Shown: in pieces, positions 5,318-38,348 of the stretch
Numbering within the stretch: the first letter of the stretch is position 1
Layout of the letters: every line of letters begins with the position of its first letter
Assembly: GCA_024636855.1 (NCBI GenBank)
Contig: JAGXGG010000030.1
Location: forward strand, 1 to 45,944
Direction: 5' to 3'
Origin: Ignavibacteriota bacterium
GTDB taxonomy: Bacteria > Bacteroidota > Ignavibacteria > Kapaibacteriales > UBA2268
DNA: 45,944 nucleotides
Program-made: the position numbers and the translations under genes
The notes under the pieces: generated by a model
The model's database searches: none
Told to the model about the DNA's origin: nothing
What the model saw: only the letters and a program-made list of their open reading frames with translations

Positions 5318-6511
5318 ATGGATAATAGTACTATACATAGTGACAAATTACTAGAGAAAAAGTTCGGTATAATCGGGACAGCTGAACCCATGCGCAAAGC
5401 AAAAAAGCTATTGCTCAAGGCAGCGCCGACAGAGTTGTCAGTTCTGATAACAGGTGAGACTGGCACCGGTAAAGATGTATTTGCCAAAGCTATTCACGGA
5501 TTGAGTAAGCGTAGAGGTAATAATTTCGTCAGTGTGAACTGCGGTGCTATACCAGAAACTCTACTCGAATCTGAACTATTTGGTCATGAAAAAGGAGCTT
5601 TTACTAGCGCCGTTGACCAAAGAATAGGCTACTTCGAGACTGCTGACAATGGTACTATATTCCTAGATGAGATAGGCGAGATGCCTGTAGAAACTCAAGT
5701 AAAACTACTGCGAGTATTAGAGTCTGGTGAGTTTTCTAGGCTTGGTTCATCAGATAATCGCAAAGTAGATGTACGAGTAATTGCTGCCACTAACCGCGAG
5801 TTAGAAGAGAGAGTAGAACAAAAGCAATTCAGACAAGATTTGTATTTTAGATTGAGATCTGTTCATATACAGCTACCCTCACTTAGAGAGCACCCAGAGG
5901 ACATAGAGCCACTTTTCTACTATTTTGCAAACAGAACAGCTAATAATATTGGTCTCGATTTTAAAGGTATCAGCATAGAAGCACTCGAAATACTAAAGAG
6001 CCAACCTTGGGATGGGAATGTTCGAGAGCTAAAAAACCTAATAGAGACTATGCTTACTCTTGAAGCAAAAGAATTCATAGAAGCAGAGAATGTAACTAAA
6101 TATATAAGACCGTCGCTCCCACGTCACACTAAGCCGAGACAAACGGCGCTAGTGACTACTACTCATACGGGTGATGACAACCCAAACTTAGAGCTAGGAA
6201 TTATATTCCGTACACTGCTTGAGATAAAAAATGATATTCAAGACCTAAAACGAGAAGTTCATTTCAATACTCTAAAACTTGAGGAAGTAGTCGCTAATCA
6301 AAACGAAATAATGATTCAGACTGCCGACGAAGTAATAGAAAATGATGAAATGCTCGAAGGATTCGATACTCTAAACCTAGCAAATATAGAAAAACGACTA
6401 ATCGTTTTCTCACTCAACCGATTCGAGGGTAATCGCCGCTTAGCTGCCAAAGAGCTAGGTATAAGTGAGCGTACTCTCTACCGCAAACTAAAGCAATATG
6501 ATTTGGATTGA
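5318..6511 (+). CDS. Sigma-54-type AAA+ transcriptional activator without sensor domain (GAFTSA variant)
   Basis: 397 residues. The AAA+ domain starts almost at once (residue 16), as in PspF, with no receiver, GAF or PAS domain. Walker A is GETGTGKD (46-53) and Walker B TIFLDEIG (113-120); arginine-finger region RQDLYFRLRS is present. The sigma-54 contact loop reads GAFTSA (93-98) instead of GAFTGA. A charged, coiled-coil-like linker (about 285-345, LLEIKNDIQDLKREV) leads to a C-terminal Fis-type helix-turn-helix ending RTLYRKLKQYDLD. It should bind an enhancer and remodel sigma-54 RNA polymerase. Control may come through a partner protein, since no input domain is present. It is the last gene of the DJ-1 to rhodanese run. 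Confidence 0.9.
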   Translation: MDNSTIHSDKLLEKKFGIIGTAEPMRKAKKLLLKAAPTELSVLITGETGTGKDVFAKAIHGLSKRRGNNFVSVNCGAIPETLLESELFGHEKGAFTSAVDQRIGYFETADNGTIFLDEIGEMPVETQVKLLRVLESGEFSRLGSSDNRKVDVRVIAATNRELEERVEQKQFRQDLYFRLRSVHIQLPSLREHPEDIEPLFYYFANRTANNIGLDFKGISIEALEILKSQPWDGNVRELKNLIETMLTLEAKEFIEAENVTKYIRPSLPRHTKPRQTALVTTTHTGDDNPNLELGIIFRTLLEIKNDIQDLKREVHFNTLKLEEVVANQNEIMIQTADEVIENDEMLEGFDTLNLANIEKRLIVFSLNRFEGNRRLAAKELGISERTLYRKLKQYDLD

Positions 6512-18491: not shown

Positions 18492-19577
18492 TTAACCCTT
18501 TAATAAATAAGTCTCTAACTCACTTATCCTGTCTTGTAGGATAAATTTATCCTTGACTCTTTTCAGACCAGCTTCGCCCATTTGTTTACGTAGATCAGGA
18601 TTATTAACTAGAAGTTCTATTTTCTCCACGAACATATCTACATTTGGAAAATCGATTAGGTAACCAGTTACATTATTGTCAATTATCTCGGGGTTACTGG
18701 TAATGTCATAGGCAAGAACAGGCTTAGATTTCATCATTGCCTCGACCAGAACAAAGCCGAATCCCTCCCACTCAGAAGTAAGAAGAAACAAATCTATAGA
18801 ACTCATAAATGGACTCATATCCTCCACAAAACCAAGTAAAATGACTTTGTCTTGGAGTTTGTGTTGTTTGATCTCTTGTTCTAAGGAGTTACGTTCCTCT
18901 CCTTCTCCAGCTATAAAAAGAGTAAAATCTATATTGTTTTCATCTAGTCTTTTTGCTATTTGGATTAAGTCTTTCTGACGTTTTTGTTCTGTTAATCTAC
19001 CAGCATTACCGAGTATAATTCCTTTGGCTTTTTTGGTGACTATATCGAGTTTTTTAGTAGTATCCTTATCTAGTTCTATCCCATGATAAATAGTATGAAC
19101 TTTATCTGAAGGGATGTAAGTACTCAAACTCTTTAATATCTGTCTTTTGGTTTCATCAGAGTTTGATATAATATGGGTCAGACAAGATTTGAAGACAAAT
19201 ATATTTATGAAATTCGCTTTAACAGGAGTAGCTAATCCACGTAGATATACGATTCTATCAACTCCAGCTAGTTTACCAGCAATAGCACCAATTTTCAAAT
19301 CTTGTGATGATGAAAACACAATTGTGTCTATTTTATTCTTCTTTAAAAAGGATGCAAATCTAAGGACTTTGTAGGGATTGATAAAAGAAAGGTTACTGAC
19401 AGAAACAGCGAAACGATTAAGATTACTCTTATCACATTTACCCCAAAGAATAGAGCTCGGATTAGCAGCAACTGTAACGTTATAATTCTTTTTATTGAAT
19501 TCAATTGCATTTTCTAGGTGTAGCTTTTCGCCACCTCCCCAGAATTTTATACTATTCAAAAAGCAAATATTCTTCAT
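18492..19577 (-). CDS. GT-B glycosyltransferase, family 4 type
   Basis: 361 residues in two Rossmann domains. The N-terminal half opens NICFLNSIKFWGGGEKLHLENA, with the acceptor-binding glycine loop. The C-terminal half has GNAGRLTEQKRQKDLI and the nucleotide-sugar motif EGFGFVLVEAMMKSKPVLAYDITSNPEII, with the Glu pair (E-X7-E) typical of retaining GT4 enzymes. It probably adds a sugar in lipopolysaccharide or exopolysaccharide synthesis; donor and acceptor are not predictable. No other polysaccharide gene is adjacent, so it is an isolated transferase. Codon use appears like its neighbours. Confidence 0.9.
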   Translation of the reverse strand: MKNICFLNSIKFWGGGEKLHLENAIEFNKKNYNVTVAANPSSILWGKCDKSNLNRFAVSVSNLSFINPYKVLRFASFLKKNKIDTIVFSSSQDLKIGAIAGKLAGVDRIVYLRGLATPVKANFINIFVFKSCLTHIISNSDETKRQILKSLSTYIPSDKVHTIYHGIELDKDTTKKLDIVTKKAKGIILGNAGRLTEQKRQKDLIQIAKRLDENNIDFTLFIAGEGEERNSLEQEIKQHKLQDKVILLGFVEDMSPFMSSIDLFLLTSEWEGFGFVLVEAMMKSKPVLAYDITSNPEIIDNNVTGYLIDFPNVDMFVEKIELLVNNPDLRKQMGEAGLKRVKDKFILQDRISELETYLLKG

Positions 19578-19690
19578 TTAATTAATTTCTTCAAATATGT
19601 AATATATATTTAAAGCAAATATAGAGAAAGTAAATGGGTTTTAGTAATCCGGATAATCAGACGTACTAAATAAGTTGTACATATTTAGTT

Positions 19691-19762
19691 TAACACAGAG
19701 GTCACAAAGTTTGGTTTGTAAAGCTGCATACTATTTTATAATTTTTTGTATGCTTTGTGTTA
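19691..19762. repeat. Palindromic repeat unit 1 (short spacer)
   Basis: Left arm TTAACACAGAGGTCACAAAG and right arm CTTTGTGTTA form the ends of an imperfect hairpin about 72 bases long, with a spacer containing GTAAAGCTGCATACTATT. The spacer is nearly identical to that of unit 3, showing recent copying. A 24-base linker of the form AAAGGATTG-N3-ATATTTGG joins it to the next unit. Confidence 0.85.
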
Positions 19763-19785
19763 TAAAAGGATTGGATATATTTGGA

Positions 19786-20304
19786 TTAACACAAAAATCT
19801 CAAAGTTAGGTATATTACCTACCAATCTAATTTGCCATTGATTACTCTTTTTACTCCATTCTTTAATAAAGCAACATTAAAATTTATAATTAAACCAAGC
19901 TTAAACTTTCCTAACCTCAAATATGTTAATGTTTGTGCTAAATGGACTTTCTGCAATTGTTCTATGCTTTTTATTTCCACTACAACTTTATCATTTACAA
20001 GTATATCCATTCTATAGCCACTCTCCAATTTTACATCCTCATAAACAAGTGGCATTGACTTTTCTTTATCTACTTTTAAACCCAACTTTCTTAATTCATA
20101 ACAGAGGCATTCTTGATATGCCTTTTCAAATAGACCTGGTCCCAAACTATTATGCACTTTTATTGCAGCTCCAATAATTAGAGTCGACAATTCATTTTCA
20201 GTTAGATTATTCATTTCATAAACCTAAAATAATTCTAGAATTTAACATACTTAAAGTTGAATATAATGAAATTTCATTATTTTTACTCTGTGTACTTTGT
20301 GTTA
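19786..20304. repeat. Palindromic repeat unit 2, holding the GxxExxY gene as its spacer
   Basis: The left arm (TTAACACAAAAATCTCAAAG, 19786-19805) lies 14 bases past the stop of the GxxExxY gene, and the right arm (ACTCTGTGTACTTTGTGTTA, 20285-20304) lies 70 bases upstream of its start. The unit is thus the same hairpin frame as units 1, 3 and 4, but with a gene in the place of the 40-50 base spacer. Confidence 0.8.
19819..20214 (-). CDS. GxxExxY family protein, PD-(D/E)XK nuclease fold
   Basis: 131 residues, normal for the family. The name-giving motif is GLFEKAY (Gly27, Glu30, Tyr33) within NSLGPGLFEKAYQECLCYEL. The nuclease-like core has MDILVNDKVVVEIKS with Asp70, Glu80 and Lys82 as a D-X(n)-E-X-K site, so a metal-dependent nuclease activity is plausible but not shown for the family. 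It is often mislabelled a Nudix hydrolase. The gene is framed on both sides by arms of a repeat that recurs three more times next to it, so it is probably the cargo of a small mobile or repeat-borne element. Confidence 0.9.
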   Translation of the reverse strand: MNNLTENELSTLIIGAAIKVHNSLGPGLFEKAYQECLCYELRKLGLKVDKEKSMPLVYEDVKLESGYRMDILVNDKVVVEIKSIEQLQKVHLAQTLTYLRLGKFKLGLIINFNVALLKNGVKRVINGKLDW

Positions 20305-20328
20305 AAATAGGATTGTATATTTTTGGTT

Positions 20329-20401
20329 TAACACAGAGGAAGCAAAGATTGGTTTTGTAAAGCTGCATACTATTTTATAATTCTTTGTAGCCTTTGTGTT
20401 A
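20329..20401. repeat. Palindromic repeat unit 3 (short spacer)
   Basis: TAACACAGAGGAAGCAAAG at the left and CTTTGTGTTA at the right, with a spacer containing GTAAAGCTGCATACTATT as in unit 1. The linker to unit 4 reads AAAGGATAGTACATATTTGG. Length is about 73 bases. Confidence 0.85.
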
Positions 20402-20413
20402 AAAAGGATAGTA

Positions 20414-20496
20414 CATATTTGGATAAACACGGAGGTCGCAAAGTTTGATATGTTAAGTTGTCTTTGGTCAATAATACTTCACGTACTTTGTGTTAA
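20414..20496. repeat. Palindromic repeat unit 4 (diverged spacer)
   Basis: Left arm TAAACACGGAGGTCGCAAAG, right arm ACGTACTTTGTGTTAA. The arms match those of the other units but the spacer has a different sequence. After it comes the terminator of the S-adenosylhomocysteine hydrolase gene. The whole 361-base gap between 20215 and 20575 is made of the right arm of unit 2, units 3 and 4, and that terminator. Confidence 0.8.
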
Positions 20497-20516
20497 GAAA
20501 GAGGGGTGCAAAAAAA

Positions 20517-20544
20517 AGCCGCTTCGGATAATCCCAAAACGGCT
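20517..20544 (-). terminator. Intrinsic terminator of the adenosylhomocysteinase gene
   Basis: Reading the minus strand: a stem AGCCG...CGGCT with an 18-base loop, followed by an unbroken run of T. It lies 32 bases past the stop codon of the gene at 20576-21901. Confidence 0.75.
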
Positions 20545-20575
20545 CTTTAAAATTCTAATAAATAGTCGTAAACTC

Positions 20576-21901
20576 TTACGTTCCGCTATTATAGTTTTCT
20601 ATGTAAGCAAGTTGCTCTTCTGTCAAACTATCGATAGCCATGTTCATAGTAGCTAGTTTAGTTTCAGCAACAAATTCATCTTGTGAAGTCGGAATCTCAA
20701 TCACAGAATTAGGCAATTTCTCACCTCTTGTGTGTGCTTGAGCTAAGGCAACGTGCGACAAGAATTGATTAGCAAATGACATATCCATTACTTCAGAAGG
20801 GTGACCTTCAGCAGCAGCTAGGTTGATTAACCTACCTTGTGCAAGTAAATATAGTCTATTGCCATTCGGTAATGTATATTCTTCGCAATTTTCACGAATA
20901 GTACGTTTAGAAACAGCGATTTCGTCAAGTTCTGGGATATTGATCTCACTATCATAGTGACCTGTATTACAGATGATAGCACCATCACGCATAGACTCAA
21001 AGTGATTCTTTCTGATGATATCTTTCACACCAGTTGTAGTACAGAATATATCGCCTATTTTAGCGGCTTCGTCCATAGTAAGAACTTCGTGTCCGTTTAG
21101 CACACCTTTCATAGCTGCAGTTGGCTTAACTTCAGTGATTATCACGTTAGAACCCATACCTTTGGCACGTAGTGCAACACCAGAACCACAGTGACCATGA
21201 CCTGCTACTACGAAGTTTTTACCAGCTAATAGAACAGAAGTAGCACGGATGATACCGTCCAAAGTAGATTGACCAGTACCATATACATTGTCAAAATCCC
21301 ACTTAGTTTCTGCATCGTTTACAGCGTATACTGGGTAGTATAACTCACCCGCTTTCTCACGAGAGCGAAGTCTATGAATTCCAGTAGTAGTTTCCTCAGT
21401 TCCACCTACTACATGAGTTTGAGCCATTTCTTTATATTTTTCGTGCATTGTATTTATCAAATCACAACCATCATCTAATGTTAGATGTGGCTTAGGGTCG
21501 ATAGTTCTTTCTATACACCAATAGAAATCAGGGCCATTGTCATGCCATGCAAAAATACCAATACCTTCTTCAGCTAGCGCAGCGGCTACTGCATCATTAG
21601 TTGATAGTGGATTACATCCAGACCACCAAACTTCTGCACCTGCTTCTTTCAAAGTTCTGATTAGAATACCAGTTTCTTTAGTTACATGAAGACACCCTGC
21701 TATTACATAGCCTTTTAGTGGCTTAGTTTTAGAGTATTCTTCTCTTAATTTTCTCATAACGGGCATACGAGATTCTGCCCAATCCATTAATAATCTTCCT
21801 TTCGGGGCTAAATTTATATCACGAACGCAATATTTGCCCGGAACTTCTGATAGTTGTCCTTTTTCAGCTTTTGCTGGTATATTCTCTGTCATTGTTGCCA
21901 T
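20576..21901 (-). CDS. ahcY: Adenosylhomocysteinase (S-adenosyl-L-homocysteine hydrolase)
   Basis: 441 residues. It cleaves S-adenosylhomocysteine to adenosine and homocysteine with bound NAD, completing the methyl cycle. Recognisable blocks are AGCLHVTKETGILIRTLKEAGAEVWWSGCNPLSTND, the HDNGPDFYWCIERT region, GTGQSTLDGIIRAT, the NAD loop VVAGHGHCGSGVALRAKGMG and the C-terminal NLAAAEGHPSEVMDMSFANQ. The NAD loop has His and Cys where Tyr and Val or Trp are common (GYG...). Length matches the shorter form without the 40-residue insertion of eukaryotic and many proteobacterial enzymes. It is monocistronic. Confidence 0.96.
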   Translation of the reverse strand: MATMTENIPAKAEKGQLSEVPGKYCVRDINLAPKGRLLMDWAESRMPVMRKLREEYSKTKPLKGYVIAGCLHVTKETGILIRTLKEAGAEVWWSGCNPLSTNDAVAAALAEEGIGIFAWHDNGPDFYWCIERTIDPKPHLTLDDGCDLINTMHEKYKEMAQTHVVGGTEETTTGIHRLRSREKAGELYYPVYAVNDAETKWDFDNVYGTGQSTLDGIIRATSVLLAGKNFVVAGHGHCGSGVALRAKGMGSNVIITEVKPTAAMKGVLNGHEVLTMDEAAKIGDIFCTTTGVKDIIRKNHFESMRDGAIICNTGHYDSEINIPELDEIAVSKRTIRENCEEYTLPNGNRLYLLAQGRLINLAAAEGHPSEVMDMSFANQFLSHVALAQAHTRGEKLPNSVIEIPTSQDEFVAETKLATMNMAIDSLTEEQLAYIENYNSGT

Positions 21902-37994: not shown

Positions 37995-38348
37995 GGGGGG
38001 AGAAATGCGTTCATTGAGCGGTGTCGAAGTGCATACGTCTCAAAAAGATTAAACACAATGATCTAGTATCGCTGTCATTGCGAGGATCGAAGCGACGTTG
38101 CAATCTATTTGGGTCAGTATCACGGATTATACAGATTAGATGATTTCACAGAGGTCACAGAGTTCTTGTCACTCAGAGGAATGCAAAGCATCCGAAGAGT
38201 CCAGGCAACTTCAGTAGAAGTTAAATCATCTTCGAACTGTGCTCCACAGGAGGAACTGTCAGAACTTGTTCTGACTGAGGAGGAAGAAATTACAACGATC
38301 CTCTTCGTTTGCACAGCTCCTTATATTTTTAAAATCCTTAGTCAGTTC
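37995..38348. repeat. Mosaic of dispersed non-coding repeats in a 354-base intergenic gap
   Basis: No gene is supported here. Visible pieces: ATTGAGCGGTGTCGAAGTGC (about 38013-38032, a fragment common in other genomes); TCATTGCGAGGATCGAAGCG (38075-38094) leading to GCAATCT, an imperfect palindrome of a widespread intergenic repeat type; GATTTCACAGAGGTCACAGA (about 38142-38161), which matches the left arm of the units at 19691-20496; AGATGATTT and AAATCATCT (38138-38146, 38223-38231) forming an inverted pair; and a perfect hairpin GTCAGAAC-TT-GTTCTGAC (38258-38275). The stretch is GC-richer than the surroundings. Confidence 0.6.

Follow-up and report, generated by a model that had tools for sequence, protein, structure and literature searches.

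GxxExxY nuclease genes and iterated inverted repeats as candidate parts of one REPIN/RAYT-like system

Introduction

In an Ignavibacteriota genome, a gene of the GxxExxY family lies between the arms of a palindrome, and palindromes with the same arms and no gene lie on either side of it. What joins this gene to its palindromes, and do the two together form a small mobile element with gene-less derivatives, as an initial annotation of the DNA had proposed? We found no account of the function of GxxExxY proteins in the open-access literature. In this study, we address the question from the stretch of 45,944 bases that holds the locus (hereafter the window) and from GxxExxY loci and gene-less repeats in other genomes.

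Results

The array in the window

At no more than three mismatches, the arm pattern TTAACACARAGNNNNCAAAG matches the window eight times with strands alternating, all eight matches being confined to 19690-20496; shuffled windows gave a mean of 1.29 matches and at most 6, and 0 of 100 shuffles reached 8. The eight arms form four inverted pairs (units), set apart by linkers of 21-22 bases and of nearly one sequence. The locus is laid out as follows.

19665-19689, no strand: decayed linker copy before unit 1 (60% to the reference copy, family D1)
19690-19763, no strand: unit 1, gene-less palindrome with arms at 19690-19709 (+) and 19744-19763 (-)
19764-19785, no strand: linker 1, by linker-pattern match
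19786-20305, no strand: unit 2, gene-bearing, with arms at 19786-19805 (+) and 20286-20305 (-)
19819-20214, minus strand: GxxExxY gene, 131 aa, putative RecB/Cas4-like PD-(D/E)XK nuclease by profiles and structure model
20306-20327, no strand: linker 2, by linker-pattern match
20328-20402, no strand: unit 3, gene-less palindrome with a spacer resembling that of unit 1 (arm pattern and alignment)
20403-20423, no strand: linker 3, by linker-pattern match
20424-20496, no strand: unit 4, gene-less palindrome with a differing spacer (arm pattern and alignment)

The initial annotation had described palindromic units with common arms and a GxxExxY gene between those of one unit, and both descriptions hold. 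Its common linker also stands as a near-identical sequence in all three linkers (0, 1 and 0 mismatches to the linker pattern for linkers 1, 2 and 3), but not at the 24 bases given for it; at three mismatches the linker pattern alone is no rarity (11 matches against a chance mean of 6.4). The spacers of units 1 and 3 differ by one gap and one mismatch over 41 aligned columns, while that of unit 4 aligns with that of unit 1 at a score of only 9. The decayed linker copy ahead of unit 1 makes the period of the repeat a linker plus a palindrome, about 96 bases, and together with the near-identical spacers of units 1 and 3 this makes the locus read as a tandem array of that period. The near-identity of these two spacers, noted in the initial annotation, is borne out; tandem duplication of linker plus palindrome explains it as well as transposition does.

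The array lies between a glycosyltransferase-like gene and an adenosylhomocysteinase gene. Folded as single-stranded DNA, unit 3 is more stable than its shuffles (z -2.7), unit 1 less markedly so (z -2.0) and unit 4 not (z -0.5). A scan of 19400-20700 against Rfam gave nothing near a gathering score, its three weak matches having E values of 0.2-0.8. The possibility that the spacers of units 1, 3 and 4 are remnants of the gene was not established, the observed scores being reached by 56, 19 and 124 of 1000 shuffles, respectively. Single arm matches at three mismatches are commonplace genome-wide (20 + 24 against 12 + 20 in the reversed control), and a lone tandem unit pair, CACAGAGGTCACAGAG, lies at window positions 38147-38162, right after a stretch resembling GATT-type units.

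The window protein

The window protein belongs to the GxxExxY family by wide margins over the profile cut-offs (147.3 bits against TIGR04256, cut-off 35; 143.2 bits against PF13366, cut-off 22) and carries the PD-(D/E)XK active-site residues E30, D70, E80, K82 and Q94. D70 is invariant across 140 intact GxxExxY proteins, in which E30 is kept in 138, E80 in 135, K82 in 138 and Q94 in 138, with H21 in 128 and Y98 in 132. A search of solved structures by sequence profile gave no match up to E 1. With a structure model of the protein (pLDDT 92), Cas4 ranked first both in Foldseek (4r5q, E 7e-3, no match falling under 1e-3) and in VIA-align (SSO0001, Z 9.4, 104 residues, rmsd 4.2), where many other nucleases followed at Z of about 6-8. 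Cas4 profiles match the sequence weakly (PADLOC E 0.003 and 0.006; Pfam E 0.048), the Pfam Cas_Cas4 score of 14.2 bits being below the cut-off of 22.7. By this model the window protein and Cas4 have a common fold, of RecB/Cas4 type, and nuclease function is putative. A reading as Holliday-junction resolvase was set aside, Hjc scoring Z 7.1, below the 9.4 of Cas4 and among many tied rows. As to phages and plasmids, tblastn of phage records gave no GxxExxY match at E 1e-5, PHROGs gave none, and 8 of 72,556 plasmid records had matches.

Inverted arms across the GxxExxY family

We surveyed the best 80 of 110 relatives, 29 loci from a search of 61 genomes of the phylum (30 minus the window) and 40 further loci taken by rank from the remaining matches of that search, weaker and truncated ones being omitted. 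With the window and L002 this made 151 entries for 150 genes, since L235 is the same gene as L203; 140 of the 151 have 300 bases on both sides, and 11 were omitted from the protein work for a stop, a broken frame or a length of <90 aa. L133 and L220 have 2,801 identical bases in common and are probably one genome met twice. Four further pairs, L184/L240, L189/L211, L200/L227 and L202/L232, have a 60-base word in common and come from differing genomes.

Each locus was given an arm score, the best inverted match between its two flanks, with a threshold of 14.5, which is the 99th percentile of the scores at 672 control positions within these loci. This threshold was exceeded by 83 of 140 GxxExxY loci against 5 of 672 controls and missed by 57 of the 140, of which 34 score <12; a score of at least 12 was reached by 106 of 140 loci and 54 of 672 controls. 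Inward tandem CRCNRAG units were present on both sides of 57 of 144 genes, and the same test displaced by 300, 600, 900 and 1200 bases gave 1/139, 0/134, 0/130 and 0/91. Removal of the duplicate L235 changed little (arms in 82/139 loci against 4/666 controls; tandem CRCNRAG units in 56/143). Full flanks were available for 72 of the best 80 relatives. Of these 72, 45 passed, drawn from 14 of the 17 named phyla, and neither of the two archaeal loci did. Over the 83 loci, the arm-gene-arm length from outer end to outer end has a median of 505 bases. The framing of the gene by arms that also occur without it, seen first in the window, thus holds for much of the family, and the outcome by which the initial annotation would have been refuted, a gene unflanked in all relatives, did not occur.

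Two loci bear on annotation. The left arm, at 2959-3000 in L135 and 1353-1394 in L136, continues the reading frame of the gene without a stop and would be translated as TEDTESTEE, so that annotated N-termini of the family may include arm sequence.

The arms as putative protein-binding DNA

The main arm type consists of 2-4 copies of a 7-base unit, C-R-C-N-R-A-G, at a pitch of about 9 bases: letters within arms recur at 9 bases (z 20), and successive unit starts lie 8, 9 and 10 bases apart in 73, 129 and 37 cases. For the 59 loci whose left arm has two or more CRCNRAG units, the two arms agree at 1033 of 1120 unit letters and at 267 of 412 spacer letters, a contrast that is a guide and not a measure because the arm alignment favours matches. 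The fourth unit letter is loose (0.68). Mismatches that keep a G-U pair on the gene strand number 121 against 141 of the mirror kind (p 0.24, 113 loci). Conserved units, loose spacers and the lack of a wobble bias fit a DNA-binding protein better than a selected RNA hairpin, and we regard the arms as putative DNA-binding sites. Within a locus, units agree in the CAC/CGC letter in 50 of 59 cases; an effect of GC content on this letter was tried and rejected (rho 0.01, n=59).

Arm class follows the protein tree

Besides CRCnRAG, arms fall into GATT-containing, CATnTAAG and CACnAAn classes. A tree was built from 103 proteins (from 105 loci with intact genes and arm scores of 12 or more, two unclassed ones being dropped) over 125 alignment columns, with 44 of 98 inner branches open. 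On this tree the arm classes need 8 changes against 30.1 with shuffled labels, and 0 of 200 shuffles are as low, ten of the labels having been assigned manually from the arms within the tree-building script, ahead of the tree itself. With automatic labels alone (97 rows, unclassed ones dropped) there are again 8 changes, against 26.6, and without the duplicate L235 still 8 against 30.1. When labels were permuted within genomes (11 multi-class genomes, 33 loci), the mean was 19.6 and the minimum 12, and 0 of 2000 permutations were as low as 8; automatic labels within 8 genomes (23 loci) gave a mean of 13.9, a minimum of 9 and again 0 of 2000. Since the within-genome permutation is never as low as 8, host composition does not explain the fit between class and tree. 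Repeat type is thus paired with protein type, by both the tree and the permutation tests, as it is in REPIN-RAYT systems. These findings suggest that gene and palindromes co-evolve as a single REP-like genetic element.

Gene-less palindromes accompany the gene

GxxExxY genes are present in 29 of the 61 sampled genomes of the phylum. Tandem CACARAG-N1-3-CACARAG occurs in 26 of the 29 genomes with TIGR04256 and in 4 of the 32 without it (Fisher 6e-10, kinship ignored), at 295 sites (the arms of the genes themselves included) against 4; the reversed pattern occurs in 7 of 29 and 6 of 32 genomes, respectively. Site number tracks gene number (Spearman 0.85). The three exceptions without sites are G062 and G037, with one gene each and GATT arms, and G009, with two typed genes whose arms are of CGCAAAG and CACGAAA type and a third, untyped gene.

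From four genomes we picked 40 stretches by hand among the matches listed (9, 11, 12 and 8 per genome); a partner lay inward in 12 cases, outward in 18 and in either direction in 28. Outward partners of gene-less arms are as common as inward ones, which one simple element does not explain. Eight of the 40 lie inside an ORF of at least 100 aa, against 83% of random positions. There are therefore dispersed inverted pairs of short repeats between genes, one of them near the gene. Between the intact arms of L331 lie the final codons of a GxxExxY gene (61% over 18 residues, E 0.002) and, as read by eye, its first codons, with the middle missing. From its sequence, L331 appears to be a gene-deletion derivative.

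Empty sites in the genus

The genus of the window genome comprises four genomes, and the three congeners were compared at the array site. Empty sites in relatives, which the initial annotation had suggested looking for, were found: in all three congeners both flanking genes align and the array is missing between them. The aligned flanks are separated by 31 and 38 bases in two congeners, and in G001 (L070 1160-1430) the site is filled by 271 bases of unrelated repeat-like sequence. Pieces resembling this sequence also lie near other arms of the genus. A clean target-site duplication was not found at the sites compared.

A second GxxExxY gene of the window genome, on contig C20, is 42% identical and has arms of another type. 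The corresponding site shows a decayed copy in G002 and a remnant arm in G003, and is without the element in G001. On C39, at about 5490-5620, there is a gene-less pair of the window type, and the comparison there gave no clean empty site. Within the genus, tandem CACARAG sites number five each in the window genome (G000) and G001, with none in G002 and G003. G001 is a counter-example to the pairing of sites and gene, keeping its CACARAG sites (one of the five looks coding) while its sole GxxExxY gene is of the GATT class, with a protein 49.6% identical to that of L002, likewise of the GATT class, and 39% to the window protein.

A resident gene in Flavobacteriaceae-type loci

In seven Flavobacteriaceae-type loci (L138, L142, L143, L145, L148, L149 and L150) the gene lies at one syntenic place, and its arms vary. 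The contig of L145 is labelled Lentimicrobium and has the Flavobacterium-type syntenic locus; the label is probably an assembly binning error. The six of these genomes that were searched hold 8-21 unit-pattern sites (at most two mismatches, own arms counted) against 0-2 in the reversed control, at several places besides the gene locus. Nine close pairs were compared for dN/dS: one was saturated, and the other eight, of which five belong to this group, gave 0.04-0.09. The picture looks like a resident enzyme plus spreading palindromes. The pair L135/L136, considered as a transposition caught in the act, was weakened as an example: the element is accompanied by the end of a neighbouring gene, which fits rearrangement better than clean transposition.

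A parallel in S23-type genes

Genes for S23-type four-helix-bundle proteins (TIGR02436) occur in 44 of the 61 genomes; none was found in the window genome. Of 30 loci, L151-L177 among them, 24 were used and 6 omitted for stops or cut ends. Inverted iterated arms surround the gene in 16 of the 24, compared with 2 of 144 controls. The pitch of these arms is 7 bases (z 20 at lag 7 and z 16 at lag 14), and their letters vary widely and are quite unlike those of GxxExxY arms. This is a strong lead that TIGR02436 genes may have an architecture parallel to that of GxxExxY loci. TAACTGA heptamers are known as direct repeats in Beggiatoaceae, Cyanobacteria and Bacteroidetes, with no known way of spreading (PMC4679880), and they have the same 7-base pitch as the arms of four-helix-bundle genes. 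As a repeat near these genes the heptamer was rejected, giving single matches only, in 2 of 24 loci.

Discussion

Taken as a whole, we consider it reasonably probable that the GxxExxY gene and the palindromes together make up a single REPIN/RAYT-like system, selfish or semi-domesticated, built on a PD-(D/E)XK nuclease. A small nuclease of RecB/Cas4 fold would recognise the 7-base units repeated within the inverted arms of its own gene, as the co-evolution of the two implies, and its targets would include both the copy with the gene and, in trans, palindromes that lack it. Cutting would probably take place in or next to the paired arms while they are in single-stranded or extruded form, and repair or replication may then copy or rearrange the palindromes. 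Gene-less units might arise by internal deletion of gene-bearing ones, for which L331 is the one example, and then multiply between genes, tandem copies included, whereas the gene would stay at one locus for long periods under purifying selection, as RAYT genes do. The window would then represent one gene-bearing and three gene-less units in a tandem array that is lacking at this site in three congeners.

An autonomous mini-transposon, that is, an arm-gene-arm cassette of about 0.5 kb moved whole by its own nuclease with the gene-less units as ordinary MITEs, is in our judgement unlikely. The median cassette length, the absence of the window array from the congeners, the polymorphic C20 locus and the deletion derivative L331 are what it predicts, but it does not account for the long residence of the gene at one syntenic place in the seven Flavobacteriaceae-type loci or for copies within a genome that are usually different proteins by the tree and not near-identical ones, and no target-site duplication was found. 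The original proposal of a mobile element with gene-less derivatives is thereby divided: the derivatives are upheld by the palindromes that accompany the gene, by L331 and by the empty sites, while simple hopping with the gene is unsupported, given the syntenic loci, the low dN/dS and the palindromes lying elsewhere.

We give still less weight to a host function with nothing mobile, in which the arms are operators and the dispersed palindromes further sites for chromosome upkeep, repair or gene control. Purifying selection and a fixed locus agree with it, and a regulator would likewise make protein and site co-evolve; yet the gene is patchy, with several differing copies per genome, and sites absent in congeners, tandem arrays and a deletion derivative are at odds with such a role. 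Very improbable, to our mind, is an RNA-level element like the intervening sequence of 23S rRNA, with arms that form a duplex in the transcript and are cleaved by RNase III, even though that system has inverted ends around a small gene as well as gene-less forms (PMC4990558), and a hairpin of RNA or DNA is plausible for unit 3: G-U-keeping mismatches are not in excess, spacers match poorly, the protein fold is of DNA-nuclease type and the window locus lies between protein genes. That the palindromes are a chance or low-complexity artefact of AT-rich sequence can be dismissed almost entirely, common as single arms are, in view of the window shuffles, the neighbour-position controls and the co-evolution tests.

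Should the REPIN/RAYT-like reading be right, the GxxExxY family would gain a natural substrate and many intergenic short repeats an owner. More tentatively, and with rather less than even confidence, we propose that both gene families belong to a wide and so far unrecognised class of bacterial hairpin elements, whose small proteins, unrelated to one another (GxxExxY, 9-base pitch; S23-type, 7-base pitch), may co-evolve with iterated-unit arms of their own. The rRNA intervening sequence would be a special case, having come to lie in 23S rRNA, and the orphan short-repeat arrays of many genomes would be members without a gene.

Several known systems are similar in part. Like MITEs, the gene-less units are inverted-repeat derivatives lying between genes. 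Their arms are those of the gene-bearing copies, and one deletion derivative was seen; neither a transposase family nor a target duplication was identified here. Cas4 proteins have iron-binding cysteines. With Cas4/RecB-type nucleases the GxxExxY protein has in common the predicted fold, the D, ExK and QxxxY positions and weak matches to Cas4 profiles; it differs from Cas4 in its length of about 130 aa and in scoring under the Pfam cut-off for Cas4. The 23S rRNA intervening sequence with its S23 protein is likewise a small gene between inverted ends, sporadic and suspected to be mobile (PMC4990558), but here the locus is outside rRNA, the protein is of another family and the arms appear constrained as DNA units. 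Closest is REPIN-RAYT, in which REP doublets go with IS200-like tyrosine transposases (PMC3116915). As that source presents it, the two have in common short inverted intergenic pairs with a resident nuclease gene among them, different proteins paired with different palindromes and a gene that is often vertically inherited (PMC3116915). However, the enzyme here is of the PD-(D/E)XK type (TIGR04256/PF13366) and not an HUH/Y1 tyrosine transposase, and the arms are iterated 7-base units at a pitch of about 9 bases, in which they differ from REPIN-RAYT as far as it is described there. Since the enzyme is not a tyrosine transposase, the GxxExxY system falls outside REPIN-RAYT in spite of a similar proposed way of working, and it would represent the same kind of partnership on an unrelated nuclease fold.
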